A stretch of DNA of 38,361 bases from Chloroflexota bacterium (GTDB lineage: Bacteria > Chloroflexota > Dehalococcoidia > UBA2247 > RBG-13-53-26): NCBI GenBank assembly GCA_026389585.1, contig JAPLHP010000084.1, forward strand, positions 1 through 38,361, written 5' to 3'. The notes beneath the pieces were generated by a model that did not search any database, was not told the DNA's origin, and was given only the letters and a program-made list of their open reading frames with translations. Below are positions 2 to 17,644 of the stretch, in pieces (within the stretch, counting starts at the first letter, position 1; each line of letters starts with the position of its first letter). The translations under genes were made by a program, and so were the position numbers.

Positions 2-655
2 GTCATCCGCATCGCCTACCAGACGCTGGCCGCTGTCTTGGGCGGAGCCCAGTCCATACACGCCAACGGCTACGATGAAGCGGTGTGCCTGCCGACGGAA
101 CAAGCCATGCTGCTGGCCATTCGGACTGAGCAGATAGTGGGGCTCGAGTCCGGCGTTACCAATACCATAGACCCGCTCGGAGGTTCCTACTATGTTGAGT
201 CCCTGACCAATGAGATTGAGAAGAGGGCATGGGAGTATATCAAGAAGATCGAAGACCAGGGCGGTCTTTTGAAGGCCATCACCAATGGATGGATTCACCG
301 GGAGTACAAGCAGGCCATAATTGACTACGACCACAAACTGAAGTCCGGCGAACTTACCATTGTGGGCGTCAACAAGTTCCGCCTCGATCCGGACAAGGTG
401 CCCTACAAGGTGCCCATCTTCAAGTCAGATCGTACCTCCGTCGAGTTTCTCAAGCAAAGGATCAAGAAGCTCAGAGAGACCAGGGACAAAGCCAAGCACG
501 CCCAGGCCATGAAGAAGCTGGACGAAGTCCTCCGCAGCGACGCCAACTCTGTCCCGGCTATCAATGAAGCGGTGGAAGCACACGCTACCCCTGGAGAGTT
601 GGGGGCGGCTGTGATGAAGGTCTACGGCAAGTGGACCTACCCGATCGGTGTCTAG
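2..655 (+). CDS. Acyl-CoA mutase (methylmalonyl-CoA mutase type) large subunit, 3' part
   Basis: Only the C-terminal part of the catalytic (TIM-barrel) subunit of a B12-dependent acyl-CoA mutase is present; the gene is open at the left edge, in the frame starting at base 2. The reading frame gives RIAYQTLAAVLGGAQSIH, then NGYDEAVCLPTEQA and a DPLGGSYYVE motif, all characteristic of the mutase barrel and its C-terminal segment. There is no fused B12 domain: the chain ends at the stop and the B12 domain is the next gene, so this is the split, two-subunit form seen in archaea and in 2-hydroxyisobutyryl-CoA or ethylmalonyl-CoA mutases. The residues that separate these substrates lie upstream of the window, so the substrate (methylmalonyl-, isobutyryl- or 2-hydroxyisobutyryl-CoA) cannot be decided. 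Family assignment is secure. Confidence 0.93.
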   Translation, partial: VIRIAYQTLAAVLGGAQSIHANGYDEAVCLPTEQAMLLAIRTEQIVGLESGVTNTIDPLGGSYYVESLTNEIEKRAWEYIKKIEDQGGLLKAITNGWIHREYKQAIIDYDHKLKSGELTIVGVNKFRLDPDKVPYKVPIFKSDRTSVEFLKQRIKKLRETRDKAKHAQAMKKLDEVLRSDANSVPAINEAVEAHATPGELGAAVMKVYGKWTYPIGV

Positions 656-671
656 GGAAGGAGAAGAAGCA

Positions 672-1088
672 ATGACTCAGAAGAAAGTCAGAGTTCTAAT
701 GGCCAAGCCGGGGCTGGAGGGTCACTGGCGCGGATTGATTTCCGTCAGCCAGGCTTTCAAGGACGCCGGCTTTGAAGTGGTATACGGTGGCAGCATGCCT
801 CCGACTGAGATCGCTGCGACCGCTCTTCAGGAAGACGTTGACATAGTGGGCCTCAGCATACTCTGCTCCAACTATATGGAGCTGGTCACCGAGGTCATGA
901 AGGAACTCAAGGCCAAGAAGAAGGATGATGTGATCGTCATATTGGGTGGCATCATCTACGAGGATGATTTTGATGCACTCCACAAGATGGGCATCGATGG
1001 GATATACATCCCGGGCACTCCTCTGGACGATATAGTGGCCTCGGTCCGCCAAGTCATTACCCGGGGCAAGAGGAAGGTTACCAGGTAG
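672..1088 (+). CDS. B12-binding small subunit of acyl-CoA mutase
   Basis: This 138 aa protein has the flavodoxin-like cobalamin-binding fold of the methylmalonyl-CoA mutase C-terminal domain. It shows the AKPGLEGHWRG stretch (lower-ligand His18), a VGLSILCS strand with the S-x-L motif, and a VILGGIIYEDD stretch with the GG motif that contacts the nucleotide tail. The usual DxHxxG motif is present as E16-x-H18-x-x-G21, a conservative Asp to Glu change. I chose the ATG at 672 because an AAGGAG-type site sits about 10 bases upstream; a possible start at 648 would overlap the end of the mutase gene and add a residue stretch with no family match. It lies 16 nt after the large-subunit stop, so the two are co-transcribed and form one holoenzyme with adenosylcobalamin. 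Confidence 0.93.
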   Translation: MTQKKVRVLMAKPGLEGHWRGLISVSQAFKDAGFEVVYGGSMPPTEIAATALQEDVDIVGLSILCSNYMELVTEVMKELKAKKKDDVIVILGGIIYEDDFDALHKMGIDGIYIPGTPLDDIVASVRQVITRGKRKVTR

Positions 1089-2067: not shown

Positions 2068-2637
2068 ATGAACGATCAGGCTGCGATACCGAAGGAGCGG
2101 GTCAGTGACGGTGAGTTCCGGCACTACGTGTTCAGTGTGTCGGAGGTGCGCGCTGAGGCAGAGCGATTTCTGGGGCAAGCAGGATACGAACTGAAGCCTC
2201 CAAAGTACATTGGCCTTGTTCAGCCTGATTTTCGAGCAAAGCGCAAGACGAGCAGTGGTACCTTTGAACTTGTTGGGATGGTGCGTGACAATCTGGATCA
2301 GGCAGTCGAGGCGCTTATCAAGCTGGCTGCCGTAAAGGCTGCCAACCGTGATGTTGATTGTGTCCTGGTGCTCCCCCCCGTAAATGAGTACCTCTTGATT
2401 GAATGGCTGACAGAGGAGAGCGGGCGATGGTACTTTGGCCTGAAGGACTGCAAACTCGTGGTGTGGTTCTGCAATCCGGACAATAAGACAACGATATGCG
2501 TTATTGGAGCGCCGGCAGACAGGGACTTTCAGAAGCACTTCTATATGAGTACGATGAGTTTCGATGACTACATGTCCATCAGAGCGTCTCACCTCATTAA
2601 AGAGAGGCTTCTGGCAGAAGAAGAGGAAGAAGACTAG
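2068..2637 (+). CDS. Unknown protein, ACS-cluster associated (type A)
   Basis: I do not recognise this 189 aa protein. It is soluble, without signal peptide or membrane segments, and ends in an acidic tail (AEEEEED). Its middle and C-terminal parts line up by eye with the unknown protein encoded at 18885-19691. Shared elements are a helix before a GY-x-L turn, an F-x-L-x-x-x-VR strand, a helix rich in L and A, a D-x-x-LV-x-P strand and loop, and a P-x-x-RD-x-x-K-x-F-x-M motif near the end. The alternating hydrophobic strands and helices suggest an alpha/beta fold, perhaps nuclease-like or Rossmann-like, but I see no clear catalytic motif. It sits 9 nt after cdhB and 54 nt before the SDR, so it probably belongs to the same transcript. 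Confidence 0.8.
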   Translation: MNDQAAIPKERVSDGEFRHYVFSVSEVRAEAERFLGQAGYELKPPKYIGLVQPDFRAKRKTSSGTFELVGMVRDNLDQAVEALIKLAAVKAANRDVDCVLVLPPVNEYLLIEWLTEESGRWYFGLKDCKLVVWFCNPDNKTTICVIGAPADRDFQKHFYMSTMSFDDYMSIRASHLIKERLLAEEEEED

Positions 2638-2691
2638 GCCGAAGAAGGCCTTCTAAATCAATCAAAAAATACTCTTGAGGAGGAGGTGAGA

Positions 2692-3612
2692 ATGGCTAAA
2701 CATCTGGAAGGCAAGAATGCTGTGGTCACGGGCGGAGGCCGGGGCATAGGAAGAGCAGTGGCATTGGAATTGGCCAGGAATGGCGCCAAGGTAGTCGTAT
2801 CTGATCTCGGCGGCAGCGCGGCTGGAGAAGGCGCGGATGCGACGCCGGCGCAGCAGGTGGCAGATGAGATCAAGAAGGCTGGTGGGCAAGCGGTTGCCAA
2901 TCATGATAACGTCACCGATTTCGCTGCGGCAGAGCGGATCATCAAGACATGCGTGGACAACTTCGGCAGGATAGACATTCTGGTCAACTGCGCCGGTATT
3001 CTGCGTGATCGCATGATCTTCAACATGACGGAACAGGAGTGGGATGCCGTCATCGCGGTTCACCTGAAGGGCATGTTCAACATGTGCCGCCATGCCTCCA
3101 AAATGATGAGGGAGCAGAAGTGGGGGAGAATTGTTAGTACTACCTCTGATGCCTGGCGAGGTGCCCCGGGGCAGCCCAACTACAGTGCTGCCAAGGGTGG
3201 CATTGTAAGCCTCACCTACACCATGGCGGGAGAGTTGGGCAAGTATAATGTGACTGTGAATGCCATTGCTCCAATAGCAGCTACCAGACTGACGATGAGT
3301 GATGAGGTGAAGGCGAGATTCACCAGGGCTCTTGAAGCGGGCATGATGAACAAGGAACAGTATGAGGATGCAATAAACATGCCCGGGCCGGAGTTTGTGG
3401 CCCCAATAGTGGCCTACCTTTGCACGGAAGAGGCAAAAATCATCAATGGTAAGGTTATCGGGGTCAGCGGTGGTCGCGTGGCTATCTATACCAAACCATT
3501 CGAGATTGCTGGCCTCCATAGGCAGCATAGGAAAGATGGTGCCTGGACAGTGGACGAGCTGATCAAGTTAGTCCCCGGGACTTTGATGGCTACACCATTG
3601 GTCATGATGTAG
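2692..3612 (+). CDS. Short-chain dehydrogenase, hydroxyacyl-CoA dehydrogenase-like
   Basis: This 306 aa NAD(P)-dependent oxidoreductase has a classical SDR fold: the nucleotide motif TGGGRGIG near residue 16, an NCAGILRDR stretch, and the Y-x-x-x-K catalytic pair in PNYSAAKGG. The position 13 residues before that Tyr, usually the catalytic Ser, is Thr with a Ser next to it. The SDLGG segment, the spacing, and the TIAP-like NAIAP and NGKVIGVSGG segments resemble the dehydrogenase part of the peroxisomal multifunctional enzyme type 2 (HSD17B4), so a 3-hydroxyacyl-CoA substrate is likely. The ATG at 2692 follows a strong GGAGGAGGTG site. Its place between the mutase genes and ACS suggests oxidation of a 3-hydroxyacyl-CoA to a 3-ketoacyl-CoA; this substrate is an inference. 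Confidence 0.9.
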   Translation: MAKHLEGKNAVVTGGGRGIGRAVALELARNGAKVVVSDLGGSAAGEGADATPAQQVADEIKKAGGQAVANHDNVTDFAAAERIIKTCVDNFGRIDILVNCAGILRDRMIFNMTEQEWDAVIAVHLKGMFNMCRHASKMMREQKWGRIVSTTSDAWRGAPGQPNYSAAKGGIVSLTYTMAGELGKYNVTVNAIAPIAATRLTMSDEVKARFTRALEAGMMNKEQYEDAINMPGPEFVAPIVAYLCTEEAKIINGKVIGVSGGRVAIYTKPFEIAGLHRQHRKDGAWTVDELIKLVPGTLMATPLVMM

Positions 3613-3782: not shown

Positions 3783-5147
3783 GTGAGTGTTGCGGAAAGT
3801 GCCGAGATAAAGATACCAGCCGGAAGAGAGTATCAGTTGCCGACCGACCCTGATCATCTGTGGGATGGGTTGAGGGATATCGGGTTGGGTATAAGATGGG
3901 TAGCTGAGGTAAAAAAGGTCGACATGCAAATTGAGCTGTCGGGGCCAAAGTGGGAATACAAGAGTTACACCATCCTTGAGATCGTAGAAGAACCGGGGAA
4001 GGTCAGGAATGGCATAGTTAACCTTGTTGGCCCAGATATACATGAAGTCCCGCCTGGGAGCTCTTTCCCTATGGCATGGGACATCAAGGTCTATGGCCAG
4101 GGGATAACCCAGAGACACCGGGAATACATTGAAAGACAAATGGCCATGTCATTACATGGCATAGAGGGCTATATGGCCTTTGGCTCATTCCAGGCCCCCT
4201 GGATGCGCTTCAGCAAGGCTATCGTTGGCCGACTCACCTTTGCGAAGCTGTGCCAGGTCATACATGCCTACGTCAAGACCGTTGTCCCGCAGGTGGAGGC
4301 GATGGAGTTCCGCTGGATCATTGCATCGGAGGAAGTTGGTGGCCTCAAGCTGATTGAGCCACTCTACAGGTTGGGTATTCAGAGGCTGAAGGCGCAGGAA
4401 CTGTCGGTCTCTCTTGAAGATGGTGACGTGGATATCTTCTATGGCTGCACTATCTGCAAGTCGCTGGCCCCCAACCACGTGTGCGTCATTACACCGAGCC
4501 AGATACCGTACTGTGGCATCCTCTCCTATAATGGAGCACAGGTGACGGTGGAGCTTGATCCGGAGGGCTATATCTTCCGAATGCGCAAAGGCGAGTGCAA
4601 AAATGAAGAAAAGGGCAGCTACACCGGTGTGGATGAGGCAGTCTACGAGAGGTCTAATCATCAGATAAAGCGTGTGAATGTCTTCAGTGCCATAAAGTAT
4701 CCTACTACCAACTGCGGTTGCTTCGAAGGGGCGGCATTCTATATTCCTGAGGTAGATGGACTTGGCTTGGCTATAAGACGGTACATTGGGGTAACTCCGT
4801 TGGGCATAAAGTTCTCGCGTCTGGCTGGCATGATTTCAGGCGGCTCTCAGAACCATGGAAATAAGGGCGTATCCATGCGGTCCATGCAAAGCAAGACCTT
4901 TCTCAAGGGCGATGGGGGTTGGAGCAGGATAGTGTGGATGCCCGCCGATTTGAAGAAGGAAGTCGCGGAATACATTCCCGAAGAAATCTACGATAAGATT
5001 GCCACTCAGGAGGATACTGTTGATCCTATCGAGCTGAAGGAGTTTCTAAAGAAGAAGAAGCACCCGATAGTAGAGAAGTATTGGAAGAATGGCGAACCCC
5101 AGCCACTGAAAGTACCATTACCTGGAGCGAATTGGCCCGACGAATAG
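3783..5147 (+). CDS. cdhC: Acetyl-CoA synthase beta subunit, copy 1 (CdhC type)
   Basis: This 454 aa protein is the short, archaeal-type ACS that lacks the N-terminal CODH-docking domain of acetogen AcsB. ACS joins a methyl group from a corrinoid protein, CO and CoA to make acetyl-CoA at the Ni-Ni-[4Fe4S] A-cluster, or runs in reverse. All A-cluster ligands are visible: C222-x2-C225-x8-C234-x9-C244 hold the cubane and bridging Ni, and C311-G-C313 holds the distal Ni. The conserved APNHVC stretch is intact. The residue equivalent to the gating Phe (Phe512 in Moorella ACS) is Leu228. The GTG at 3783 is set 5 nt from an AAGGAGG site; the ATG two bases upstream is out of frame. Zinc-finger gene follows after 16 nt. 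A diverged second copy starts at 8290. Confidence 0.93.
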   Translation: MSVAESAEIKIPAGREYQLPTDPDHLWDGLRDIGLGIRWVAEVKKVDMQIELSGPKWEYKSYTILEIVEEPGKVRNGIVNLVGPDIHEVPPGSSFPMAWDIKVYGQGITQRHREYIERQMAMSLHGIEGYMAFGSFQAPWMRFSKAIVGRLTFAKLCQVIHAYVKTVVPQVEAMEFRWIIASEEVGGLKLIEPLYRLGIQRLKAQELSVSLEDGDVDIFYGCTICKSLAPNHVCVITPSQIPYCGILSYNGAQVTVELDPEGYIFRMRKGECKNEEKGSYTGVDEAVYERSNHQIKRVNVFSAIKYPTTNCGCFEGAAFYIPEVDGLGLAIRRYIGVTPLGIKFSRLAGMISGGSQNHGNKGVSMRSMQSKTFLKGDGGWSRIVWMPADLKKEVAEYIPEEIYDKIATQEDTVDPIELKEFLKKKKHPIVEKYWKNGEPQPLKVPLPGANWPDE

Positions 5148-5655: not shown

Positions 5656-8163
5656 GTGAAAGATAAGAGAATTGCTCATGTCGGATCTCTGGAGGTCGAT
5701 ATCAGCACAGTCGTGCGTGACCCGCGCGGTCATGAAGACGAAATTGTCGAGATAATGGAGAACGACTTTGTTGAGGGCCGCCATAGTAATTTTGGAGGGC
5801 GGATAACTCTGCTGCCCGATGCAGCAGACATAGCGGAACTGGATTATGCTCTGCTGAACAGGTATCCACCGTTATACACTCAGCCCAAGGGAGTTTGCAC
5901 TGACTGTGGCCTGGGCCCCTGCAACTTGAAAGAGGATCAGGGAAAGTGCGGACTGGATATGGACGCTTTCCAGGGCAGGTTAAGCTTGCGCAAAGCATGC
6001 CGGGGTTGTATGACTCAACTAGTGGCCAGCCGACAATTGCTGAACTATGCTCTCAAACGCTGGCCAGAGGATACGCCTGTCAGCATGGGTGAGATTCTCG
6101 GTATCTCGGATCATGCTCCTGCCATAAGCGTATTATCCGGGATACACGTAAAGACTTTAGGGGATCTTAACAGAGCGCTTTCTTATGGAGAGGAACAGCT
6201 GGCCAAGCTCTTTCAGGCGAGTTATTCGGGCACTGGAACTGCGGTGAATTTTGAAAGCATGGTGCTGCATGCCGGGTCTGTTTTGCTCCTCACCATGGGT
6301 GTGGCTGAGATGCTGAAGATCTCCTGCTATGGCTTTATCAGTGCTGCCAATCAGCCACTGGATGGGATAGAACAGTTTCCTCCTGCTACTTTAAGTGGTG
6401 GATGGGCATCCATGGAGAGTGGAAAGCCTGTTATAGCCTTTGTTGGGGATGACTTCCTGCCGGCATGGTGTGCCATCGATCATATGAAGCAGAACGGTGT
6501 GACGGAAAAAATTGAGATATGCGGCATGGGTTCAGCCGGTGATGACATAGTGAGATTCTACGATAGGTGCCGGATCGTGGCCCCGATGGTGAGGGCGCCA
6601 AAGGCGATCAGGAATGGCCTGTTTGATGTGGTTGTAGTCAGTCCAGGCTGTATTCCCCTGGACATTCTATCCCAGGCGGAGCGTGTTGATAGCAAGGTTA
6701 TATGGGTTGGGCACAATGGAATCAGCAATCTAGTGGATAGCACGGATGAGCCATCAGACAAGATAGTAGAGGCCTTACTTCATGGAGAAAAGGCAGTCTG
6801 GATCAGGGATGTAGAGAAGGCTGGTGAGGTGGCGGTGAAGTTGGCACAGAAGGTAAAGAGAAGCGGTAATTACATTATCTCTGACGATGAAGCAATGAAG
6901 CAGGCAAAGGGCCACAAGCAGGATTGTGATATTTGTTCCAGTGTCTGTCCTAATGGGTTGCCTGTGTCCAGGGCAGTCAGAGAATTGAGTAATGGTGACT
7001 GGAAGGGTTTCTTCGAGGTGGAGAAGGGATGCAATTTCTGCGGCAAATGTGATGAGGCCTGCCCCAGCAAGGTTAAACTGCGCGATGTCATTGTAGCTGC
7101 CGAAAGAAAGCAGGCCGGCACCGATAAATTCACAATGAGGCCAGGCAGGGGGCCGATATCCATAACTGAGCTGCTGCAATCTGCTTTCGCAGTAGGCTGG
7201 GGCAGCATACCAGCTATGGTGACCATCTTTGGTTGCGGCGATGCTAAGAAGGAGGAGATTGCCTGGCTAGCCAGTGAGTTGCTTAACGGCGGTTGCATGG
7301 TCTTTGTGGCAGGGTGTGCCGGAGCTGAAGTGGCTCGATCTTTCAGCCAGGCGAAGAAGAAGTACCTCTTTCAAGAATATGCTGGCACTTGTGCCTCGAG
7401 AAATATTGTGAATTGCGGCAGTTGCTCCGCTATTTGCCATGCTGTTCCGATGTATCTCATGCTGCGGCCTTCTGGTGGCATTCCTCTGTTTGGCAATATA
7501 CCGCCGCTGGGAGATTCCATCAGTCTTGGTGGTGCTCAGTCTGTGATCATGTGGGGGGCATTGCCGGACAGGATGTATGCGGTGGCGGCTGCCTGGGCCC
7601 GGCTTGGATCAACGGTCATTGTAGGGCCTGCTTCATCCTCAGGATGGAACCGCTACCTGGTTGGTGATAGATATGATCGCAGCAAGTGGTGGGTCTATCA
7701 TGGTGAGACGGGTAAGAGGCGTGAGGTTGAACCAGTAAAGGAACACTGCATTGTGCCCGTGGAAACTAAAGAGGAAGCGTTGACTATGCTGGCAAGGTCT
7801 GTGTTGAATGTAAGGGACTACAGAGAGAGCCGGGCTACTCACCTGGAGGTGATGATTGACTACTTTGAGCGCTTCTATCGGCAGCTGCCGGAGGATTGGC
7901 CTCTCTTTGTGAGGTCGGATTTCGAACTGCCGCCGAGATACAGACGACGTATGGTCAATCTCCTGGAATCCGAGTATGGATGGGAGACTGAAGGTGTGAA
8001 GGTTAAGAGGGCAAAGAATAGAGATGGCAAGCTAATGACCATGTCTGAGTTCGCAGCTACCTATGGGATGGAGCAAGGGATATATACCACAAGGCTTCGC
8101 ACCCAGTTACCCCTGCGTCTCAGGGGTGTGGCTGATGAAGGCAAGTCTAAAAATCGGCCGTAA
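5656..8163 (+). CDS. CdhA/CODH-like Fe-S protein with altered C-cluster, copy 1
   Basis: This 835 aa protein is related to the alpha subunit of archaeal CO dehydrogenase (CdhA, about 800 aa). B-cluster cysteines C81, C84, C89 and C98 are intact. A ferredoxin-like insert holds C424, C427, C431 (with H420 where copy 2 has Cys) and C459, C462, C465, C469. For the C-cluster, the cubane cysteines (C332, C527, C554) and the Ni ligand Cys (C590, GSC) are present. The pendant-iron His (GHN in CODH) is GDD at 264-266, and the Cys of the GxCC motif is replaced by GS at 292-293. Proton-relay histidines after C118 read Q121, A124, Q127, and the catalytic Lys is R639. Normal CO/CO2 conversion is therefore doubtful. 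The GTG at 5656 follows GGGAGGGAGA. Mapping of ligands is from memory of the family. Confidence 0.88.
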   Translation: MKDKRIAHVGSLEVDISTVVRDPRGHEDEIVEIMENDFVEGRHSNFGGRITLLPDAADIAELDYALLNRYPPLYTQPKGVCTDCGLGPCNLKEDQGKCGLDMDAFQGRLSLRKACRGCMTQLVASRQLLNYALKRWPEDTPVSMGEILGISDHAPAISVLSGIHVKTLGDLNRALSYGEEQLAKLFQASYSGTGTAVNFESMVLHAGSVLLLTMGVAEMLKISCYGFISAANQPLDGIEQFPPATLSGGWASMESGKPVIAFVGDDFLPAWCAIDHMKQNGVTEKIEICGMGSAGDDIVRFYDRCRIVAPMVRAPKAIRNGLFDVVVVSPGCIPLDILSQAERVDSKVIWVGHNGISNLVDSTDEPSDKIVEALLHGEKAVWIRDVEKAGEVAVKLAQKVKRSGNYIISDDEAMKQAKGHKQDCDICSSVCPNGLPVSRAVRELSNGDWKGFFEVEKGCNFCGKCDEACPSKVKLRDVIVAAERKQAGTDKFTMRPGRGPISITELLQSAFAVGWGSIPAMVTIFGCGDAKKEEIAWLASELLNGGCMVFVAGCAGAEVARSFSQAKKKYLFQEYAGTCASRNIVNCGSCSAICHAVPMYLMLRPSGGIPLFGNIPPLGDSISLGGAQSVIMWGALPDRMYAVAAAWARLGSTVIVGPASSSGWNRYLVGDRYDRSKWWVYHGETGKRREVEPVKEHCIVPVETKEEALTMLARSVLNVRDYRESRATHLEVMIDYFERFYRQLPEDWPLFVRSDFELPPRYRRRMVNLLESEYGWETEGVKVKRAKNRDGKLMTMSEFAATYGMEQGIYTTRLRTQLPLRLRGVADEGKSKNRP

Positions 8164-8289
8164 GTAAATACGAACCCCCCGCCAGGTTCTGTACCCTGGC
8201 ACGATAGCACGTTGGGAATAGGGGTTTCTGAACATAGAAACCGGCTGTGTTGTGCTTGTCAATATAGGTTCCACGAAAGGGGTATACAA
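8164..8289 (+). other. Intergenic stem-loop region between the two modules
   Basis: The 126-nt gap contains a 6-bp hairpin GCCAGG (8181-8186) with CCTGGC (8195-8200), itself flanked by imperfectly complementary GAACCCCC and GGGGTTTC segments. No T-tract follows. No promoter of note was seen. It may serve transcript processing between the duplicated modules. Confidence 0.35.
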
Positions 8290-9657
8290 ATGGCTATTCC
8301 AGAGGAAGAAGCAGTATCCAAACTCCCACCGGGAAGGATATTTCAGTTGCCGACCGACCTGGATCACCTTTGGGACGGGCTGGATGACGTCGGGCTCGGT
8401 CTAAGGTGGTTGAGTGAGGTGAAGAGAGCTGACATGCACATTGAGTTGGGTGGGCCTAAGTGGGACTATAAGATGTTCTCCATCTTCTACATTGAGGAAG
8501 ATCCGGAGAAGGTCAAGGATGGCGAAGTCAAGTTGATCGGCCCGGACATTCCGGAAGTGGCACCAGGTACCTCATTACCCGGTGGGTTTACGATAAGGAT
8601 CTATGGTAAACAATTGACTCAAGCACATCAGGGCTATGTATCCAGACAGATAGGAACTGCGCTGCAAGGCATAGAAGGATTCATGCTCTTTGGAACGCCA
8701 GATGCTCTGTGGATAAGGATAAACAAAGACGTGGCTAACAGGTTGACCTTTGCCAAGATATCTCAGTTTTGCTATGCCACCGCGAGAACGCTGCTCCCTC
8801 AGGTAGATGCCATATCATTCTTCTGGGCCATAGGGGCTCCTGAAGTCGGTGGTGTTGAGATGCTAAACCCGCTGGTTACCTGGGCGAAGGAGAAGTTGAA
8901 GATCATAAGTGCTAAGGAGCTCTACGATGACGAAGACGTAGATACCTTCTACGGTTGCACGATCTGCAAATCCCTGGCGCCAAATCATGCCTGTGTCCTT
9001 ACGCCAAGCGCGCTGCCTTACTGCGGCATCATTGGCTATGATTCGGCTAGGGTAACAGCAGAAATAGACCCGGAAGGGTATGTTTTTACTATTCCTAAAG
9101 GTGAATGCTTGGATGCGGAGAAAGGGCATTACACGGGAGTCGACCAGGCCATATGGGAGAAATGCAATCATCTGGTAAAGCGTGTGAACATCTACAGCAG
9201 CATAAACTATCCGACTACCAATTGTGGGTGTTTTGAGGCAGCATCTTTCTACATACCAGATGCTGATGGTATCGGTCTGGCTATGCGGCGCTATACTAAG
9301 ATGACACCGCTCGGTGTCAAGTTTTCCACTTTGGCAGGTATGATCTCCGGTGGGGCTCAAAATCATGGGTTCAAGGGATTGTCGATTGCCGGTATGGCGA
9401 GTAAGAACTTTCTGCGAGGAGACGGCGGTTGGAACAGGGTAGTCTGGATGCCTGCGGATTTGAAGAGGGATATCGCGGATGTGATTCCAGAGGAGGTCTA
9501 TGACAAGATTGTCACCGAGGAAGAGACTATCGATCCTCTGGAGCTCAAGGAGTTGCTCCGCAAGAAAGGACATCCAATAGTAAAGATGTTCTGGAAGAAT
9601 GGCGAACCCCAGCCATTAAAGTTGCCGCTTCCCGGTGAAGACTGGCCGGATAACTAA
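8290..9657 (+). CDS. cdhC: Acetyl-CoA synthase beta subunit, copy 2 (CdhC type)
   Basis: This second 455 aa ACS aligns with copy 1 almost without gaps apart from one extra N-terminal residue. The A-cluster ligands are all kept: C223, C226, C235, C245 and the C312-G-C314 motif. The gate position is again Leu (CTICKSLAPNH). It differs from copy 1 at many surface positions and carries extra cysteines (for example C161), so it is a diverged paralogue rather than a recent duplicate. I chose ATG 8290, which follows an AAAGGGG site by 7 nt; the frame is open from 8212, but that extension (MGIGVSEHRN...) has no counterpart in copy 1. Expected role: acetyl-CoA formation or cleavage with the neighbouring Zn-finger and CODH-like proteins. 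Confidence 0.93.
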   Translation: MAIPEEEAVSKLPPGRIFQLPTDLDHLWDGLDDVGLGLRWLSEVKRADMHIELGGPKWDYKMFSIFYIEEDPEKVKDGEVKLIGPDIPEVAPGTSLPGGFTIRIYGKQLTQAHQGYVSRQIGTALQGIEGFMLFGTPDALWIRINKDVANRLTFAKISQFCYATARTLLPQVDAISFFWAIGAPEVGGVEMLNPLVTWAKEKLKIISAKELYDDEDVDTFYGCTICKSLAPNHACVLTPSALPYCGIIGYDSARVTAEIDPEGYVFTIPKGECLDAEKGHYTGVDQAIWEKCNHLVKRVNIYSSINYPTTNCGCFEAASFYIPDADGIGLAMRRYTKMTPLGVKFSTLAGMISGGAQNHGFKGLSIAGMASKNFLRGDGGWNRVVWMPADLKRDIADVIPEEVYDKIVTEEETIDPLELKELLRKKGHPIVKMFWKNGEPQPLKLPLPGEDWPDN

Positions 9658-9678
9658 ATTTAGATTGGGGGAATGTTT

Positions 9679-9897
9679 ATGGAAAAGATGTGTGATCTAT
9701 GCCAAAAAAGGGTAGCGCCGTGGACATGCCATGAATGTGGCATCGCTTTGTGTGACGAATGTGCCCGTGAGGTTCGCATTGATTCCACCAGACCGGGCCA
9801 GAGAATGATGGGCCGGATCACCAGCCCCATGAAGTCAGGGGTGCAGAAACTAAAGGTCTGCGAGAAGTGCTTCAAGGAAAAGGAGTTTCTCGGATAA
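9679..9897 (+). CDS. Small zinc-finger protein, ACS-associated, copy 2
   Basis: This 72 aa protein is the paralogue of the protein at 5164-5379. It keeps the eight-Cys pattern (CDLC, CHEC, CDEC, CEKC) and the PGQRMMGRITSPMKSG segment. The conserved segment between the third and fourth Cys pairs, rich in G, S and K, may be the interaction surface. The ATG at 9679 is preferred over the one at 9673 because it leaves 7 nt after the GGGGGA site and starts at the same place as copy 1. It lies 21 nt after ACS copy 2 and 41 nt before the CODH-like copy 2. Confidence 0.85.
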   Translation: MEKMCDLCQKRVAPWTCHECGIALCDECAREVRIDSTRPGQRMMGRITSPMKSGVQKLKVCEKCFKEKEFLG

Positions 9898-9938
9898 GAG
9901 GTACCCTTTTCTGGTGATGGTTGCTGAGGAGAGAAGTA

Positions 9939-12425
9939 ATGGAGAAGAAGAGGATTGCCCATGTAGGGCCTCACAAAGTTGACATAAGTGAAGTGGTGCG
10001 TGATCCCCGTGGTATTGAGGATATAGTCACGGAGATACTGGAGAAAGACTTTGTTGGGAGCCGCTATTCACAATTTGGGGCGTGGTTGAGTATCTTGCCC
10101 GACGCGGCGGATATCGGGGATTGGGATCGCACTCTGCTGGAAAGATATGTGCCGCTATATACCCAGTTTCAAGGCACGTGCATTGATTGCGAGTTAGGTA
10201 CTTGCAGTCTCAAGGCAAGCCAGGGCAAATGCGGATTAGGGATGGATTCGTTTCAAGGCAGGCTGAGTTTGCGCAAGGCCTGCCGTGGCTGTATGGGCCA
10301 GATGGTAGCTACTCGTCATTTGTTGAACTATGCATTGAAGTTATGGGATGAAAGCAAGGCTGTCAGCATGGGTGAGCTCTTGGCCATGTCAGATGCCTGT
10401 CCTCCTGTAGGCACTTTGAGCGGCATCTATGTGAAAACCCTCAAGGACTTGAACAGGGTGCTCTCATACGGAGAGGCGCAGTTGGCTAAGCTGATGTCTG
10501 CGAGCTATTCAGGCACCGGAACAGTGGCGGATTTTGAAAGCATGGTGATGCACGCTGGTTCTGTTCTGCTTCTGGCTATGGGAGTGTCTGAGATGATTAA
10601 GGTCGCTTGCTTCGGCTTTACGTCAGCCGCTAACCATAAGATTGATGAACTGGAGAATTTCCCGCCGGCCAACGTGGTTGGAGGATGGTCGTCCATACAG
10701 GAAGGAAAGCCGGTAATCGCCTTTGTCGGCGATGATTTTCTGCCGGCATGGTGTGCCATAGAGTATCTCAAGCAGAATGAATTGTTGGACAAAGTCGAGA
10801 TATGCGGTGTTGGCCCTGCAGGTGATGACGTGGTGCGCTTCTATGACAAGTGCCGCATAATTGCTCCGATGGTGAAGGCGGGCAAAGCTATCAGAAATGG
10901 CGTCTTCGATGTGGTTGTAGCTGCGAACGGATGTATTCCTTTGGATCTACTATCTGAAGCGGCAAGGGTGAAGAGCAAGTTCATATGGGTAGGAGCGCAG
11001 GGAGTTGGCGATCTGGTTGATAAGACTGATGAACCTCTGGATAAGATAGTGAGTGCCCTGGTTGATGGTGAAGAGGCAGTTTGGATTAGAGATGTTGAGA
11101 AGGCTGGCCAGGTAGCAGTCAAGGTAGTCCAGCAAGTGAAGGGAACACGGAAATTTATTCTAAATGATGAGTTGGCAGTTGAGCAGGCTAAGAAGTGTAA
11201 GGATGATTGTGATCTTTGCTCTATCGCTTGCCCCAATAGCTTGCCATTATCAAAGGCGGTCAGACTGTTACGCGGCGGTAACTGGGATGGTTTCTCAGAG
11301 GTGGAGGGAGGGTGCTATTTCTGTGGAAAGTGTGAAGAGGCTTGCCCGGCTGAAGTGAGGCTGCGGGACATAATAGTAGCGACTGAAAGGAAACAAGCGA
11401 GCAAGGACAAATTCATTATGAGAGCGGGAAGAGGTCCTCTCCCCCTCACTGAGATACTGCAGTCGGCTTTTTCCATGGTCTGGGGTAATGCTCCCGGTAT
11501 CGTGGTGATAGCGGGTTGTGGTGATGCTCACCGCGATGATATCGGATGGCTGGCTCAAGAATTAACCAGACGAAACTGCATTGTCTTCGTGGCTGGATGT
11601 GCTGGTGCTGAGATTGCCCGCAACCACAACGAAAGGAAGGGCAAGTATATTTTTGAGCAGTACCTGGCTTCTATTGAGCCACGATCTCTCATCAACTGCG
11701 GTGGCTGCACCGCAGTTGCCCTGGCGAATAACATGTATATGTACTCGCGTGCTGCCGGAGGCATTCCTCTCTATGGGGGCATACCAGAGGTAGGCGAAGG
11801 GTCACTTTATTCTACCTTCACGTTGCTTGTATGGGGTGCTCTGCCTGACAGGATGTATGCAGCAGCAGCAGCATATGCCCGTCTTGGGATAAGGGTTGTA
11901 GTGGGTCCGGCTTCAGGTTGGACTTGGGGTCGCTATTTGCCTGGCAATAGGTATGATCGGAGCAAATGGTGGGTCTATCATGGAGACAATGGTAGTAAGA
12001 GAGAAACCGAACCTATTCCGGAGCATTTTATTATCCCCGTGGAAACCAAAGAGGAAGCGCTGACCATGATGCCCCACACTTTCTTCAGTACATCTGAGAT
12101 GAGGGAGGGTCGGGCTGCTCGTCTTGACCTGCTTATTGAGTTGTATCGGCTGTTCTATGGCCAACTTCCCGATGATTGGAACTTGTTGGTGAGGTCCTAT
12201 TTGGATATCCCGACGAGACACAGGATCAGATTGGTTAAGCTGCTTCGGGATGAATATGGTTGGGAAGGCGATGGATTGAAGATTACCAAGGCCAGGAATC
12301 GTGATGGGAAACTGTTAACCCTGTCGGAATTCAATACCAGCTACGGTATGGAGCTGGGAAGATACCACTGCAGACTGAAGAGGCTGTTGCCAAAGAGTGT
12401 GAAAGATAGAGAAAAGGGCAGTTAG
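9939..12425 (+). CDS. CdhA/CODH-like Fe-S protein with altered C-cluster, copy 2
   Basis: This 828 aa paralogue of the protein at 5656-8163 aligns with it without gaps for over 600 residues (31 of the first 50 residues identical by my count). B-cluster C81, C84, C89, C98 and both ferredoxin-type clusters (C420, C424, C427, C431; C459, C462, C465, C469) are complete. C-cluster cubane and Ni cysteines are C332, C527, C554 and C590, the last in a GGC rather than GSC context. As in copy 1, the pendant-iron His is replaced (GDD 264-266) and its Cys partner is lost (GP at 292-293); the catalytic Lys is R638. Of three relay histidines only H127 remains. The ATG at 9939 matches the start of copy 1 and follows GAGGAG. 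Its stop overlaps the stop of the convergent gene. Confidence 0.88.
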   Translation: MEKKRIAHVGPHKVDISEVVRDPRGIEDIVTEILEKDFVGSRYSQFGAWLSILPDAADIGDWDRTLLERYVPLYTQFQGTCIDCELGTCSLKASQGKCGLGMDSFQGRLSLRKACRGCMGQMVATRHLLNYALKLWDESKAVSMGELLAMSDACPPVGTLSGIYVKTLKDLNRVLSYGEAQLAKLMSASYSGTGTVADFESMVMHAGSVLLLAMGVSEMIKVACFGFTSAANHKIDELENFPPANVVGGWSSIQEGKPVIAFVGDDFLPAWCAIEYLKQNELLDKVEICGVGPAGDDVVRFYDKCRIIAPMVKAGKAIRNGVFDVVVAANGCIPLDLLSEAARVKSKFIWVGAQGVGDLVDKTDEPLDKIVSALVDGEEAVWIRDVEKAGQVAVKVVQQVKGTRKFILNDELAVEQAKKCKDDCDLCSIACPNSLPLSKAVRLLRGGNWDGFSEVEGGCYFCGKCEEACPAEVRLRDIIVATERKQASKDKFIMRAGRGPLPLTEILQSAFSMVWGNAPGIVVIAGCGDAHRDDIGWLAQELTRRNCIVFVAGCAGAEIARNHNERKGKYIFEQYLASIEPRSLINCGGCTAVALANNMYMYSRAAGGIPLYGGIPEVGEGSLYSTFTLLVWGALPDRMYAAAAAYARLGIRVVVGPASGWTWGRYLPGNRYDRSKWWVYHGDNGSKRETEPIPEHFIIPVETKEEALTMMPHTFFSTSEMREGRAARLDLLIELYRLFYGQLPDDWNLLVRSYLDIPTRHRIRLVKLLRDEYGWEGDGLKITKARNRDGKLLTLSEFNTSYGMELGRYHCRLKRLLPKSVKDREKGS

Positions 12426-12919
12426 TCTTCCTCGTCCTCAGTTTTCTCTGATTTTACGAGGTCAAGTGCGCTGAAGGGGCATTTTTCAGGACATAGGTTA
12501 CAGATATCAAGGCCCGGTACTGCGCGTTTACAGCTTGACCATTCTACTACGTTAAGATTGCCGTCTATTACCTTAATGACTGGTGGTACGGGAGCGCGCT
12601 GAGAGAGCCTGCCGCCGGAAGTGATAGTGGTAAGTGCTCTATTGCAGACGGCGACGCAATCACCGCAACCGGTGCATCTCGACCTATCAATGACGTGATC
12701 TGTCCCTTTGATGCGCTCTCCTTCCCCCAACATCTCCTTCAGCATATTGTATGAATCACGGAATTCTTCCTTGAGAAGGAGAGGGCAGTCAGTCGGCTTC
12801 TTATTCCTGCTTATGAGGTCGAAGGCAAAGGCATAACACGTGGGAGAACCACAGAGCTTACAATTGGTACGTGGCAATAGCCTGTATATCTGGAGCGGTT
12901 GAAGATCTTTCTTAGGCAA
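12422..12919 (-). CDS. Three-cluster Fe-S protein with CdhE/AcsC-type N-terminal domain
   Basis: This 165 aa protein has twelve cysteines in three groups. The first (C20-x2-C23-x4-C28-x16-C45) matches the 4Fe-4S domain found at the N terminus of the corrinoid protein large subunit AcsC/CdhE (NCKLCGSPTCYAFAF). The second is a classical ferredoxin motif (C82, C85, C88, C92), and the third is C130, C140, C143, C147. It is likely an electron carrier between the FwdB/D-like pair and another redox protein. The TTG start overlaps the end of the fwdD-like gene and is 4 nt from AGGAGG. Its stop TAA overlaps the stop of the convergent CODH-like gene. A full corrinoid protein or CdhD gene is not in the window. 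Confidence 0.85.
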   Translation of the reverse strand: MPKKDLQPLQIYRLLPRTNCKLCGSPTCYAFAFDLISRNKKPTDCPLLLKEEFRDSYNMLKEMLGEGERIKGTDHVIDRSRCTGCGDCVAVCNRALTTITSGGRLSQRAPVPPVIKVIDGNLNVVEWSSCKRAVPGLDICNLCPEKCPFSALDLVKSEKTEDEED

Positions 12920-13313
12920 CTTTCCTCCTGACCAGGAGGTCTGAGGTCGGGGTAATATTCTTTTCGGTCGGCATGGCTGTCACATCTATCATCTTAAGGT
13001 TTGGCAGTTGCGATACCGATGGATCGTAGCTTCCCAGGTAGTTAGAATATAGGCTGGACGGCATATGGCCTATGCCTTCTTCGATAGCGGTTTCTGATTT
13101 TACTGTCACCACCACGGAGCCTGATTTGCCTTTGAGCTCGATAGGGGCGCCATTCTTAAGCCCCAGCTTTTTCAGATCAGTCGCGGATAGGTGCACCACG
13201 GCAGACTTGGTCTGATATTCATCGCCCAATCCATCTCTCTGCCTGGCAATCGCTTGGTGGATGTCGTCATAGGTCACGATGGTCAGACTAATACCTTGGT
13301 TAGATGAATCCAT
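12912..13313 (-). CDS. fwdD: Formylmethanofuran dehydrogenase subunit D-like (molybdopterin-binding)
   Basis: This protein of 133 aa resembles FwdD/FmdD, the domain that completes the molybdopterin-guanine-dinucleotide pocket of formylmethanofuran dehydrogenase. It has the double-psi beta-barrel pattern: AVVHLSATDLKKLGLKNG, followed by PIELKGKSGSVVVTVK and an EGIGHMPSSLYSN segment. The ATG at 13313 overlaps the stop of the fwdB-like gene (TGATG) and follows GGGAG, so expression is coupled; a TTG directly upstream (13316) is the alternative. Presence of this domain implies that the pair still binds a pterin cofactor, in contrast to the degenerate FhcB of methylotrophs, which lacks a D partner. 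Confidence 0.82.
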   Translation of the reverse strand: MDSSNQGISLTIVTYDDIHQAIARQRDGLGDEYQTKSAVVHLSATDLKKLGLKNGAPIELKGKSGSVVVTVKSETAIEEGIGHMPSSLYSNYLGSYDPSVSQLPNLKMIDVTAMPTEKNITPTSDLLVRRKVA

Positions 13314-14536
13314 CAAATGCTCCCTGCCAGTTGTTTCAGGACTTCTTCCTCAGTAGGATTATCTATCTTCTTTGGGCCGGCTAATGCTACTTCATCCCCA
13401 TCCATTCTTATCATTGAGCCGCCGTATTCTACACCGGGCAGTGCTGTTGGTATGACCACATCAGCGGAGATCGTGGTGGGTGTACGGAAGTGATCCAGAC
13501 AGATGACGTTTATGCCCTGCAGATTCTTTATTATGGACTGAGGCAGGGCTGAAAACGGATCTGAACCCACTATTAGCACACATTCGGGGACACGGTTTCT
13601 TATTTGTTCCAATAAGGAGAACTCACTTCCGTGAGAAATGCCGCCGGCGAAGCTTATGCTATTAACATATCCCGTCTGTTTGTAAAGCGATTGATGGAAT
13701 CCTCTCATGTTGGCTGCTGCTATCATGGGAATTACAGCAATCCTAGTCGACTGACTGAATGTATGTGCCATCTCGCTGAATGAGATGAGATCATTGTCAA
13801 GAGAGTAGATCAGGCCGAGACCGCAGAAGATCGCGCAAAAGCGAGACTTTACCACCATCTCTCTGAATTTTCTGGCTTCATCATGTCCATCCTGTCCCTC
13901 ATCGAGTATGGCATTGATGAATTCCTTATCTTGTCCAGGCCTGATTCTGAAGGACGGCTTACACATTGCGCTCAACTCCGTCTGTCTAACCTCGACGCAG
14001 CTTAGTGTTACCTTGGGAAACCATCCGGCGGGATTGTAATCAGCATAAGCATAGTAAGTGTACTTCGAAAGGTGCCTCGGGTGGGTGTGGGGAGGATTGG
14101 CACCCCAGTAGATTAGCAGGTCTGCCTTATCTTTTACTTCGGAGAGAGAGCATGTTGGCAGATCCTCGGTAAGGATTTTATGCATCATGGCACCGTATGA
14201 AAAGGATGAGGCGTCATCGATCGTTCCACCAAGCCTTTTTGCCAGCTCGATGGCAACCGCCTGTGATTCTAAAGTCGAATTATCAAGACCAAAGACGAGG
14301 AGATTCTTTGCCTTGGAAAAGAGGTGCACTGCCTCTTGAATGGCTTCTCCCAAAGAGCGCCTTTGGCCTCTAATGAGGGCTTCTGCCCGACGCTGTGGAT
14401 CAAAGCTGGAACGAAGATAGGCCGCCCCCTTGGCACAGGCGTTCTCGATACGGCCCAGATTGGCACCGTCGATCTCAACCCGGATATCGTCGCATAGACA
14501 ACCGCATGCGGTGCAGACCAAGCTCTGAGAGCTCAA
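13313..14536 (-). CDS. fwdB: Formylmethanofuran dehydrogenase subunit B-like, metal-ligand Cys replaced
   Basis: This 407 aa protein resembles FwdB/FmdB, the molybdopterin subunit that reduces CO2 to formate in methanogens. The N-terminal 4Fe-4S site is intact (C8, C11, C15, C34; CTACGCLCDDI), and the WGANPPHTHPRH stretch is a family signature. The tungsten/molybdenum ligand Cys118 and His119 of methanogen FwdB fall on S113-Y114 here (DDASSFSYG), so the metal would have no Cys ligand. FwdA, FwdC and Ftr are absent nearby. The TTG start is preceded by GAGG and the next gene overlaps. Role is open: a formate- or formyl-related redox step, or a Fe-S/pterin scaffold. The ligand mapping is from memory. 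Confidence 0.82.
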   Translation of the reverse strand: MSSQSLVCTACGCLCDDIRVEIDGANLGRIENACAKGAAYLRSSFDPQRRAEALIRGQRRSLGEAIQEAVHLFSKAKNLLVFGLDNSTLESQAVAIELAKRLGGTIDDASSFSYGAMMHKILTEDLPTCSLSEVKDKADLLIYWGANPPHTHPRHLSKYTYYAYADYNPAGWFPKVTLSCVEVRQTELSAMCKPSFRIRPGQDKEFINAILDEGQDGHDEARKFREMVVKSRFCAIFCGLGLIYSLDNDLISFSEMAHTFSQSTRIAVIPMIAAANMRGFHQSLYKQTGYVNSISFAGGISHGSEFSLLEQIRNRVPECVLIVGSDPFSALPQSIIKNLQGINVICLDHFRTPTTISADVVIPTALPGVEYGGSMIRMDGDEVALAGPKKIDNPTEEEVLKQLAGSI

Positions 14537-14653: not shown

Positions 14654-16864
14654 TTATGAATACGAAGTGCGAGCTACTGCTGCCTCTTCGACCAGGGTGG
14701 CGGGCAGTTCCTCAGGTCCGACGAGGTAGATTCTCCCCTTCCCTACTTTAGCAATCCTTCTCATCAACTCTGGATCGGCGGATCGCTGGTTGATACAGAC
14801 GCAGGAAATTGTAATACCTCGGCGAGCTACCCTGGCGGCTTGCCTGAGGGCGTACTTCTGTGGGGATGGATGGGGTGCTGTTGCATCGCCATCAGATATG
14901 AGGATAATATGCTGTTTTGCTCTTCCCTTGGGGTGATGTTCCAGCAATTCACAGGCCTTCATCAAACCGTAGCCGATGTTGGTAAAAGCGTTCTCATGTA
15001 GCTCGAGTTCAATTACCCGGCGAGTCACTCTGTGAGGGCTGGCGGTTAGATTGACGACAATATCAGCCAGGTTGGAGAATGAGACCACTGCCACCCTGTC
15101 TTTATAGGCAGTCGCGGCCAGAGAAAGAGCCATCGCGCTTTGCTTGGCGAACCAAAATTTCTCGATCTGCAACATAGTGCCAGAGACATCGATCACCAAG
15201 ACAATATCCATTCTAGTACGGATGTCTTTGATATTGACGATAATATCCTCTCTGGTGATGTATTGTCTTCGGTGGCGGATTGCCTCTCTCATGGTATTTC
15301 TGAAGGATATGTCGCGGTATTTGTCCCCGAAGCGATAGTGGCGCATCCCCACCACTCTGCCCTCGCCCAGGCTCAACTTCTTACCCGAGCTGTGCTTCCC
15401 ATATCCATATAGATAAGCTCCCTCGTCCAACCGCGGTGTCAACTTCTCCAATAGCATGTTAATGCCACGCTGGCTGAGCATCCAGCCGCTGCTGGTGCGT
15501 TCCAGGATATCTTCCTTCTCCAGAAATTCAAGGGTTTTGGCCAGCGCTTGCTGTTCTATAATCTTGGCTATTATTTCCTTCTCTTTTCTGTATTCTTCAA
15601 CTTCCTTAAGCAACTCATCATCGAGATTATCGGCTTTGTATCGTTCCGGGTAGAGCTCTGGCAAGCGACAGGCAATCTCTCTGTATAGCTGGGCCAGCTT
15701 GGAGTCAGGGAATCGTTTGATTCTCCTTAGCAGTAGATCAAAGGAGCCATATTTCAGAGGTTTCCTGAACTTATCTTCCCGGACGATCTCCTCGATCAGG
15801 GCCAGAACATCATCTTTGGTCAGGGTAGCCAGCTGTTCCCTGGCTTCATGTTTGCCGGTTACCTTCTCGACAACTTCCTCAACAATTCGCTCTCTCTTCC
15901 CGGGCAGATCGACCTCCGGGGCCAGTTTAAGGCGGTGGGGCAGCGAGACTGCTGCTGCGACAGAAAGTCTTCTATCGGCGTCCTCGTATTCCTCCAATTC
16001 AGGGAAGTGGGATAGAAGCTCAGCATTTCTAATCATGCCGCGCGTTCCTACCCCCCTTTCTACCTCGCTGTGTCTTCTTGTCTCGTTGACTATGCGAATT
16101 GCCTGCTCAAGAACTGGCTCGGCTAAGGTTTCTATATCACGGCCGATGTGGGTAAGAACAATCCTCTTTTGCTTATCAAGATCGTCAACGTAGTCAAGGT
16201 GGATAACATCAAAGTTGTCTAGCAAGTCCAGTGGTAATGACTTTAGTGCTCCCTCTCCGCCAGTGGCTACTACCAGGGTATCCAGTTTGATCTTTTGTTC
16301 CAACACGCCAATGGTTATTGTTCCATCTTGGAGCGCATACATAACTGCATTGAGCACTCGCTCAGGGATTCTATCGATGAAATCAATCAGCAATATGCCT
16401 CGATTAGCCCGCAACAGTTTTCCGGGCAGGAAAGCACGAGGAGAGCAAATACCTTCCTTGAAGGCTATTTCCGGATCAAGGTCTCCGATCAGATCTTCAA
16501 CCGTTAACCCTCCGCTTCCTTGTATCTTCACCAATCTTCTAGCCGCAGGGAGGATGGTGCTGTGAAGTATTTCACCTCGCTTTTTCCTGTCTATACACCA
16601 GGGGCAGGGATCATTTTGGGGAAAACAATGTAGGGGGCAGCCCTCTACTACCTCAATATCATTCAGAATAACAGATAGACTGTTGGCTAAGCTTGTTTTA
16701 CCACTTCCGGGGGGGCCAAGAATAAGCAGGTGGTGTGCACTGCAGAGGCTGCTTAACAAGGCCAGTTTCTTCGCATCTTCTATTTGAAGATCATCAAAGA
16801 CTGACCGGCTAAACTGGTCAGTGCCTATTCTGTCTAAGGTGGTAAGGATTTCTTCCAGAAGCAA
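14654..16864 (-). CDS. MoxR-type AAA protein fused to VWA domain, degenerate ATPase centre
   Basis: This 736 aa protein joins an N-terminal AAA+ domain of the MoxR/Mg-chelatase-I type to a C-terminal von Willebrand A domain. Walker A (GPPGSGKT, 50-57) and a zinc-binding insertion (C76, C80, C87, C90) are intact. The catalytic Glu of Walker B is Phe (D161-F162), the sensor-1 Asn is gone (TGGEG, 201-205) and the LLDRFD arginine is Asn (LLDNFD, 214-219). The VWA MIDAS is complete as D559-x-S561-x-T563 with a later ISDGDATA loop. MoxR-VWA pairs insert metals or remodel metalloenzymes (CoxD/E, Mg-chelatase I/D, NorQ/D). The TTG start is weakly supported. It lies between CooC and the FwdB-like gene. 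Confidence 0.88.
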   Translation of the reverse strand: MLLEEILTTLDRIGTDQFSRSVFDDLQIEDAKKLALLSSLCSAHHLLILGPPGSGKTSLANSLSVILNDIEVVEGCPLHCFPQNDPCPWCIDRKKRGEILHSTILPAARRLVKIQGSGGLTVEDLIGDLDPEIAFKEGICSPRAFLPGKLLRANRGILLIDFIDRIPERVLNAVMYALQDGTITIGVLEQKIKLDTLVVATGGEGALKSLPLDLLDNFDVIHLDYVDDLDKQKRIVLTHIGRDIETLAEPVLEQAIRIVNETRRHSEVERGVGTRGMIRNAELLSHFPELEEYEDADRRLSVAAAVSLPHRLKLAPEVDLPGKRERIVEEVVEKVTGKHEAREQLATLTKDDVLALIEEIVREDKFRKPLKYGSFDLLLRRIKRFPDSKLAQLYREIACRLPELYPERYKADNLDDELLKEVEEYRKEKEIIAKIIEQQALAKTLEFLEKEDILERTSSGWMLSQRGINMLLEKLTPRLDEGAYLYGYGKHSSGKKLSLGEGRVVGMRHYRFGDKYRDISFRNTMREAIRHRRQYITREDIIVNIKDIRTRMDIVLVIDVSGTMLQIEKFWFAKQSAMALSLAATAYKDRVAVVSFSNLADIVVNLTASPHRVTRRVIELELHENAFTNIGYGLMKACELLEHHPKGRAKQHIILISDGDATAPHPSPQKYALRQAARVARRGITISCVCINQRSADPELMRRIAKVGKGRIYLVGPEELPATLVEEAAVARTSYS

Positions 16865-16882: not shown

Positions 16883-17644
16883 TCAACTGTAGCCCAGGAT
16901 CTTCTTGCAGATTTCATCTATCGCAATGGATGCTGGAGAGTCTTTTGGGATCTCGGTCACAGGTTTGCCCTGGCCATCAAACTGTGCGACCAGCGGTTCA
17001 AAGGGAACATAGGCTGCTATCTCAAGCCCGTTTTCCTTGGCCAGTTCGTCTACGCGAGACCTGTTTTCCTCCGTCACCCTGTTGGCCACTATCAGGATGG
17101 CGCCAAACTCGATATTGAGCTCTCTTGATATCTCCACAATTCTCTTAGCAGTTTGAATGGCATTTTTTGTAGGATCAGTAACCACCAGCATGATGTCAAC
17201 ATCCCGGGTAGTGCGCCGACTAAGGTGCTCCAGCCCTGCGTGACAGTCGATTACAGTGAAATCATAACCCCTTGCTCTAGTGTCTATTACCTGTCGGACG
17301 ACGTGGTTGACGGCGCAGTAGCATCCCTCACCTTCCGAACGCCCCATTACCAGTATGTCGAATTGAGGGAACTCCTCGATAGCTTCATGGAGGGCCAGCT
17401 CCAGGTGTTCTTGTTTGGAACTTGTCACCTTGCTACGAGCTGGTGCATTGATAATTGCCTCCCGGCTCTCTCCCACGTTCTTGGTCACTGTTACACCAAG
17501 GGCCTGGGGGAGGTTGGAATCCGGGTCGGCATCAATTGCCAGTACGCTACCGTGCTCGGATAGCTTCTTTACCAGCATGCCTGACACAAAGGTCTTCCCT
17601 ACTCCGCCCTTTCCGGAGACTGCAATAGCAAGTCCTCTGCTCAT
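16883..17644 (-). CDS. cooC: CooC-type nickel-insertion ATPase for CODH/ACS
   Basis: This 253 aa P-loop ATPase of the MinD/NifH-like family has the deviant Walker A motif GKGGVGKT (11-18), the IDADPDSNLPQALG strand and loop typical of CooC/AcsF, and the metal-binding C108-x-C110 motif (GEGCYCAVNH). CooC dimers bind Ni(II) at the CxC pair and deliver it to CODH or, as AcsF, to ACS. Finding it next to ACS genes supports assembly of Ni in the A-cluster. The start ATG at 17644 follows AAGGAAAG and lies three bases after the MoxR stop, so translation is probably coupled. Confidence 0.92.
   Translation of the reverse strand: MSRGLAIAVSGKGGVGKTFVSGMLVKKLSEHGSVLAIDADPDSNLPQALGVTVTKNVGESREAIINAPARSKVTSSKQEHLELALHEAIEEFPQFDILVMGRSEGEGCYCAVNHVVRQVIDTRARGYDFTVIDCHAGLEHLSRRTTRDVDIMLVVTDPTKNAIQTAKRIVEISRELNIEFGAILIVANRVTEENRSRVDELAKENGLEIAAYVPFEPLVAQFDGQGKPVTEIPKDSPASIAIDEICKKILGYS

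Follow-up and report, generated by a model that had tools for sequence, protein, structure and literature searches.

The window analysed here is an entire contig of 38,361 bases (G000:C84) from a Chloroflexota genome of 1.93 Mb that is 95% complete. It carries two divergent CdhA paralogues, which we term CODHx, interleaved with two genes for CdhC-type acetyl-CoA synthase (ACS) beta subunits, termed ACSx. In keeping with the initial annotation, which had the CODH-like proteins working next to an ACS, the order on the forward strand is ACSx copy 1 (3783..5147), CODHx copy 1 (5656..8163; 835 aa), ACSx copy 2 (8290..9657, with the ORF listed from 8212) and CODHx copy 2 (9921..12425; 834 aa as listed, with an ATG six codons in). 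Upstream on the same strand lie the 3′ part of a gene for the large subunit of a B12-dependent acyl-CoA mutase, truncated at the edge of the contig (38..655), the B12-binding mutase small subunit (648..1088), a CdhB/epsilon-like subunit with a weak match to TIGR00315 (1588..2058), a conserved DUF189 protein without a Pfam or NCBIfam match (2068..2637) and an SDR dehydrogenase (2686..3612). The reverse strand then encodes a 165-aa CdhE-N-like [4Fe-4S]/ferredoxin protein (12422..12919), an FwdD-like molybdopterin-binding protein (12912..13316), an FwdB-like protein (13313..14536), an AAA+/VWA chelatase-like protein with a CoxE-like VWA domain (14654..16864), a CooC-like P-loop ATPase that is probably a Ni-insertion factor (16883..17644) and a MoxR-type AAA+ ATPase (17647..18684). 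These are followed on the forward strand by a conserved 287-aa protein weakly related to DUF189 (18828..19691), the predicted structure of which is of low confidence (pLDDT 59.5). Further along the contig, the gene for a formate dehydrogenase alpha subunit (33645-36983, reverse strand) has a single in-frame TGA at the usual selenocysteine (Sec) site (RL-TGA-HSSTVAAL).

A recurrent gene module was found in records titled Desulfobacterota/Deltaproteobacteria, Nitrospinae and Chloroflexota; it comprises MoxR, the CooC-like ATPase, ACSx, the VWA/AAA+ protein, CODHx, the epsilon-like subunit, DUF189, the FwdB-like and FwdD-like proteins, the CdhE-N-like ferredoxin and the second protein weakly related to DUF189. 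Within the family to which the window belongs the genes run mutase, epsilon, DUF189, SDR, ACSx1, CODHx1, ACSx2 and CODHx2, with the remainder on the opposite strand. The epsilon-like gene adjoins CODHx in other phyla too and the DUF189 gene is part of the module in several, while the SDR gene is kept in the Chloroflexota family only. The mutase adjoins CODHx in this family and, separately, in Desulfobacterota with CODHs of group A-6 (see below), and mutase and SDR are both absent from the core module at Nitrospinae-titled and Syntrophaceae loci. Full-length mutase orthologues find their best solved match in 2-hydroxyisobutyryl-CoA mutase (4r3u) and, in a hand alignment, have no Arg at the place of Arg207 of MCM. 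The FwdB-like protein of the window falls outside FwdB proper, scoring 314 bits against the TIGR03129 cut-off of 327.8, and it has FSYG where other lineages have the Mo/W-ligand motif FCHG or FCQG, so the window lineage has also lost the expected Mo/W-ligand Cys. In Desulfobacterota, FwdA-like amidohydrolases are recurrent neighbours.

The two CODHx copies have open reading frames, share 62% identity by alignment and match the CdhA model TIGR00314 over its full length with 458 and 463 bits, both under the equivalog cut-off of 781 bits, against 1076 bits for a canonical CdhA encoded on another contig of the same genome; a canonical CdhC likewise lies elsewhere in this genome. A predicted CODHx structure of moderate confidence (pTM 0.71, mean pLDDT 67.5) has its best PDB matches in 8riu, 9c0t and 3cf4 (Z 34-38), above all CooS-type CODHs, and hybrid cluster proteins were absent among the structure matches listed for this model. 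By fold and full-length homology CODHx is a clade A CdhA, and alignments and model together show a predicted CODH fold with the Cys residues of the B- and F-clusters and the four Cys of the cubane/Ni site.

Residues were assigned with the canonical CdhA of the same genome as reference, and PDB alignments to 8riu, 9c0q and 3cf4 put the same CODHx residues at these sites. The initial annotation had proposed that both copies keep the four cubane/Ni cysteines and lack the pendant-iron motifs, and both statements were confirmed by alignment to canonical CdhA and to PDB alpha subunits. The B-cluster Cys are retained (C81/C84/C89/C98), as are those corresponding to Cys333/446/476/526 (C332, C527, C554 and C590 in copy 1; C338, C533, C560 and C596 in copy 2). 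The pendant-iron ligand His261 is replaced by Asp (D265 in copy 1, D271 in copy 2), and Cys294-Cys295 by G292-S293 in copy 1 and G298-P299 in copy 2. Alignment likewise bore out the proposed exchange of the catalytic Lys563 for Arg (R639 and R644) and of relay His residues for Q121 and A124. The D-cluster cysteines are gone as well, and copy 1 also lacks the first E-cluster Cys. CODHx shares with the canonical CdhA of methanogen ACDS (3cf4, 9c0t) and of Ca. Ethanoperedens (8riu) its fold, length, B-cluster Cys, four cubane/Ni Cys and an epsilon-like neighbour, but at about 25-28% identity it lacks the pendant-iron His and Cys, the catalytic Lys and His, and the D-cluster.

This pattern had been presented as previously unknown, which does not hold, since an identical signature is already tabulated as group A-4 of clade A by Inoue et al. 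2019 (PMC6344411; representative OIP92259). According to that paper, the group has Asp for the His, Pro for the first Cys, the second to fifth Cys kept, and Gln and Arg at the acid-base positions; it has no D-cluster, possesses E- and F-clusters, occurs in bacteria only and is associated with ACS subunits, the catalysis being left to be examined. Copy 2 fits the tabulated signature exactly, and copy 1 differs by Ser for Pro and by the one missing E-cluster Cys; on these residues we assign the window proteins to group A-4. The Syntrophaceae record CG2_30_49_12 (L069) may be the source of OIP92259. The consulted sections of the paper do not describe a module with MoxR, VWA, Fwd and DUF189 proteins, ACS-CODH pairs in tandem, mutases or a TGA-containing ACS. 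The substitution signature is therefore not new; its setting in this module with a TGA-containing ACS partner is new as far as we found. A literature search also returned no Dehalococcoidia CODH paralogue. Group A-6, as tabulated in the same paper (PMC6344411; representative OIP30420), resembles CODHx in keeping the four Cys, in having its pendant-iron ligands replaced (Asn, Ser) and in its ACS neighbours, but differs from the window proteins in a mostly kept His relay, Leu for Lys, and Asn or Phe in place of Asp. A more distant parallel is CODH-V of C. hydrogenoformans (clade D, group D-1), a homologue of CODHs in which a C-cluster ligand is exchanged and which shows no interconversion of CO and CO2 (PMC13056359); unlike CODHx it is CooS-type, belongs to a different clade and is not paired with an ACS.

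The survey of homologues for the same substitutions that had been suggested found D265, R639 and Q121 in all 12 sampled A-4 members, from three nominal phyla, and the four cubane/Ni Cys in 25/25 full-length A-4, A-6 and 925-aa homologues compared; these counts are of related sequences, derived from MAGs or genome records, and do not represent independent events. These counts speak against a chance pattern and uphold the view that no assembly or sequencing error is involved. The ligands are absent, as had been stated, yet they have not merely been lost, because fixed alternatives stand in their place in this clade. Cys289, considered as a substitute pendant-iron ligand, was set aside because one A-4 member lacks it and its position varies in A-6. 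In both the CODHx and the ACSx tree, the root of which is not fixed, the x copies form one clade against the canonical copies, and window copies 1 and 2 part before the family diversified; the CODHx tree supports the earlier statement that the substitutions were fixed before the duplication. CODHx copy 1 is under purifying selection equal to that on canonical CdhA, with dN/dS of 0.054-0.065 (about 0.05-0.07) against 0.056, and ACSx gives 0.032-0.035; the CODHx values derive from copy 1 only, as dS of copy 2 is saturated.

Seven of nine sampled genomes of the family carry the CODHx/ACSx set, whole or in part; of the exceptions, G006 (68% complete) gave no match and G002 (72% complete) has the canonical copy only. 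CODHx also occurs in one genome each from a different family of the order and from elsewhere in the class, and a scan of named genomes added carriers in records titled Deltaproteobacteria, Syntrophaceae, Nitrospinae and Dehalococcoidia. Among 400 evenly drawn Chloroflexota genomes CODHx was present in the window genome only, which makes it rare, if old. Searching 395 Desulfobacterota genomes with a profile recovered three A-4-like members, a second group in about eight genomes with usually two copies each, and a longer form in two genomes. The second group, with Asn or Phe for the His and Leu or Ile for the Lys, equals A-6 by its residue pattern as tabulated. Viral contigs held no CODHx relative. 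Four CODHx homologues (L073, L075, L176 and L177), of which one pair is about 925 aa long, also lack the B-cluster Cys, so this electron wire is not universal. In G026, a CdhA beside CdhD, CdhC and CdhE (L057:10250-12544) has lost all C-cluster ligands, with Asn, Gly, Glu and Asp at the four Cys positions, and no second CdhA copy was seen in that genome.

Both window ACSx proteins have the CdhC/ACS C-terminal domains and all six A-cluster Cys (motif TTNCGCFE in copy 1), and are CdhC-type, scoring over the cut-off of NF003379 and just under that of TIGR00316. In nine ACSx genes from Desulfobacterota, a Nitrospinae-titled MAG and Chloroflexota, an in-frame TGA-GGN-TGA stands exactly at the two bridging Cys of the A-cluster Cys-Gly-Cys (N/S-TGA-GGN-TGA-F-E): L071:5421-6824, L067:5929-7329, L069:4221-5612, L054:1800-3203, L135:3625-5013(-), L171:7414-8781(-), L174:12579-13799, L181:6162-7532 and L132:3932-5305. 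Downstream of the TGAs, 9/9 carry ATCCCTCAGGTTGA[T/C]GGGAT, a SECIS-like hairpin with a GGU loop and a bulged U; third codon positions in the hairpin region are 0.8-0.9 identical among ten TGA genes, compared with 0.45-0.65 among Cys genes, and single-sequence fold z-scores for the hairpin are weak. Of six TGA-ACS genomes tested, five have a tRNA-Sec of over 70 bits and a SelB over cut-off, the exception being G059, which is 62% complete, and the Cys-ACS genomes G063 and G065 gave no SelB over cut-off. The TGA codons of these nine genes are likely read as Sec, which would make the product a Sec-Gly-Sec acetyl-CoA synthase; the rival reading is that UGA is decoded as Cys by a selC* tRNA-Cys of the kind described in PMC7609411. 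If Sec is inserted, a catalytic ACS subunit joins the selenoproteins, with two selenocysteines at the nickel chelate. A literature search found no Sec-containing ACS, and a two-Sec acetyl-CoA synthase is absent from the passages matching ACS in two prokaryotic selenoproteome reviews (PMC9312934, PMC13188914). The window ACSx use Cys despite the presence of SelB, tRNA-Sec and a Sec-type formate dehydrogenase in the genome; with the FwdB Cys lost as well, the chemistry of the window may differ from that of its relatives.

Two observations adjoin this subject. At L131, tRNASec-like genes with a GCA anticodon and an apparent U73 (1388-1486 and 7654-7751) lie just upstream of two ACSx genes of the Cys type, and the first ACSx gene of this pair still has the SECIS-like hairpin; from their sequence the tRNA genes are probably selC* tRNA-Cys, and such genes (G062) were rejected as proof of Sec at Cys codons because U73 and GCA match selC* tRNA-Cys (PMC7609411). 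One further ACSx (L098/L053; G059:C98) has TGA-GGG-TGC, a single TGA without the conserved hairpin, which may reflect Sec, Cys or decay.

CODH/ACS is among the oldest carbon-fixing machines, and to our knowledge all of its known chemistry concerns CO2/CO and acetyl-CoA. We are highly confident that CODHx, ACSx and the epsilon-like subunit form a separate, functional complex parallel to the canonical one, in favour of which we count the canonical CdhA and CdhC of the same genome. CODHx1 and CODHx2 would be the alpha-type subunits of this dedicated complex, their substrate face rebuilt, with the pendant-iron His replaced by Asp, the pendant-iron Cys gone, Lys changed to Arg and the relay His to Gln. 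The doubt already cast on canonical turnover stands: as neither the pendant-iron ligands nor the Lys and relay His survive, and as CODH-V offers a precedent (PMC13056359), CODHx probably does not carry out normal CO/CO2 turnover. Because the cluster Cys are kept under selection, the site would hold a [4Fe-4S] or Ni-[3Fe-4S] cluster that is redox-active but has no normal pendant iron, would neither make nor use CO2, and would supply its own ACS, in which the A-cluster ligands are complete, with electrons or a CO-level ligand. In the nine relatives, the TGA-GGN-TGA pair and conserved hairpin point to an A-cluster in use.

The ACSx reaction would most plausibly be acyl-CoA carbonyl chemistry, in which an acyl-metal bond is made or broken, on a non-acetyl acyl-CoA whose thioester group the adjoining B12 mutase would move. 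This is a guess from gene context, drawn from the recurrence of the mutase and from the ketone-activation cluster of Desulfosarcina cetonica and Desulfococcus biacutus (PMC7888143), where MeaB, B12 mutase and SDR occur together as they do, matched by gene type, in the window family, with a TDP-dependent enzyme in place of ACSx/CODHx; we hold the non-acetyl role to be tentative. Taken whole, the reading of a second CODH/ACS-like complex with a rebuilt alpha site and its own ACS acting on another acyl-CoA seems to us evenly balanced between right and wrong. Its most specific form, in which a novel complex makes use of acyl-metal chemistry at nickel on an acyl-CoA other than acetyl-CoA, is coupled to B12 acyl-CoA mutases, has its C-site converted to another redox or ligand task and in many relatives has a Sec-Gly-Sec A-cluster, is unlikely to be correct.

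The alternatives differ in what they make of the altered site. CODHx could be a catalytically silent alpha subunit that serves ACSx as scaffold, CO channel or electron relay, with CO coming from the canonical CODH; missing acid-base residues, pendant-iron ligands and D-cluster agree with this, and G026 illustrates that CODHs can persist without a C-cluster by keeping a CdhA devoid of C-cluster ligands next to CdhC. Silence would leave unexplained the invariance of the four Cys and of D265, R639 and Q121 across all 25 and all 12 sequences respectively, and the cluster Cys of CODHx are fixed whereas the CdhA of another genome (L022) has lost all C-cluster ligands, so we regard it as a minority possibility. 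The passive scaffold offered by the initial annotation accordingly fits less well than a redox-active site, cluster Cys and new site residues being fixed under strong purifying selection. Less probable again is that CODHx is still a CO/CO2 enzyme, its pendant iron carried with altered ligands on Asp265, perhaps with Cys289 or Asp296/297, and Arg639 standing in for Lys563. Asp can bind iron, D265 is invariant in A-4 and Cys289 is present in 11/12 members, but the D265 equivalent is Asn or Phe in A-6, the model predicts that C289 lies on a strand, four residues before the lost Cys, and no interconversion of CO and CO2 occurs with CODH-V of clade D (PMC13056359).

A role of the CODHx cluster in other small-molecule redox chemistry, either hybrid-cluster-like or in formyl transfer between an Fwd-like molybdo-enzyme and ACSx, draws on FwdB and FwdD as recurrent neighbours, joined in Desulfobacterota by FwdA-like amidohydrolases; the FwdB of the window has nevertheless lost its metal-ligand Cys, and we think this role improbable. 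Decaying paralogues or an assembly error could account for ligand loss alone, but are refuted by low dN/dS, conserved synteny and the same substitutions across many independent assemblies. If the preferred reading of a separate complex with a rebuilt site is true, a side branch of CODH/ACS that keeps the metal Cys, swaps the CO2 residues and has its own ACS would extend the same metal scaffold to other reactions. Group A-4, previously without an assigned role, now gains a defined set of genes and can be tested as a complex.

In-frame TAGs in CODHx homologues were considered as pyrrolysine codons and rejected, the one checked in the correct orientation (L017) being the terminal stop. The A-6 CODHs of Desulfobacterota (L170-L181) usually occur as two diverged copies per genome, some of them near TetR-like regulators, ABC-type binding proteins, acyl-CoA ligases and B12 mutases, and the pairs may be heterodimers within a catabolic regulon.
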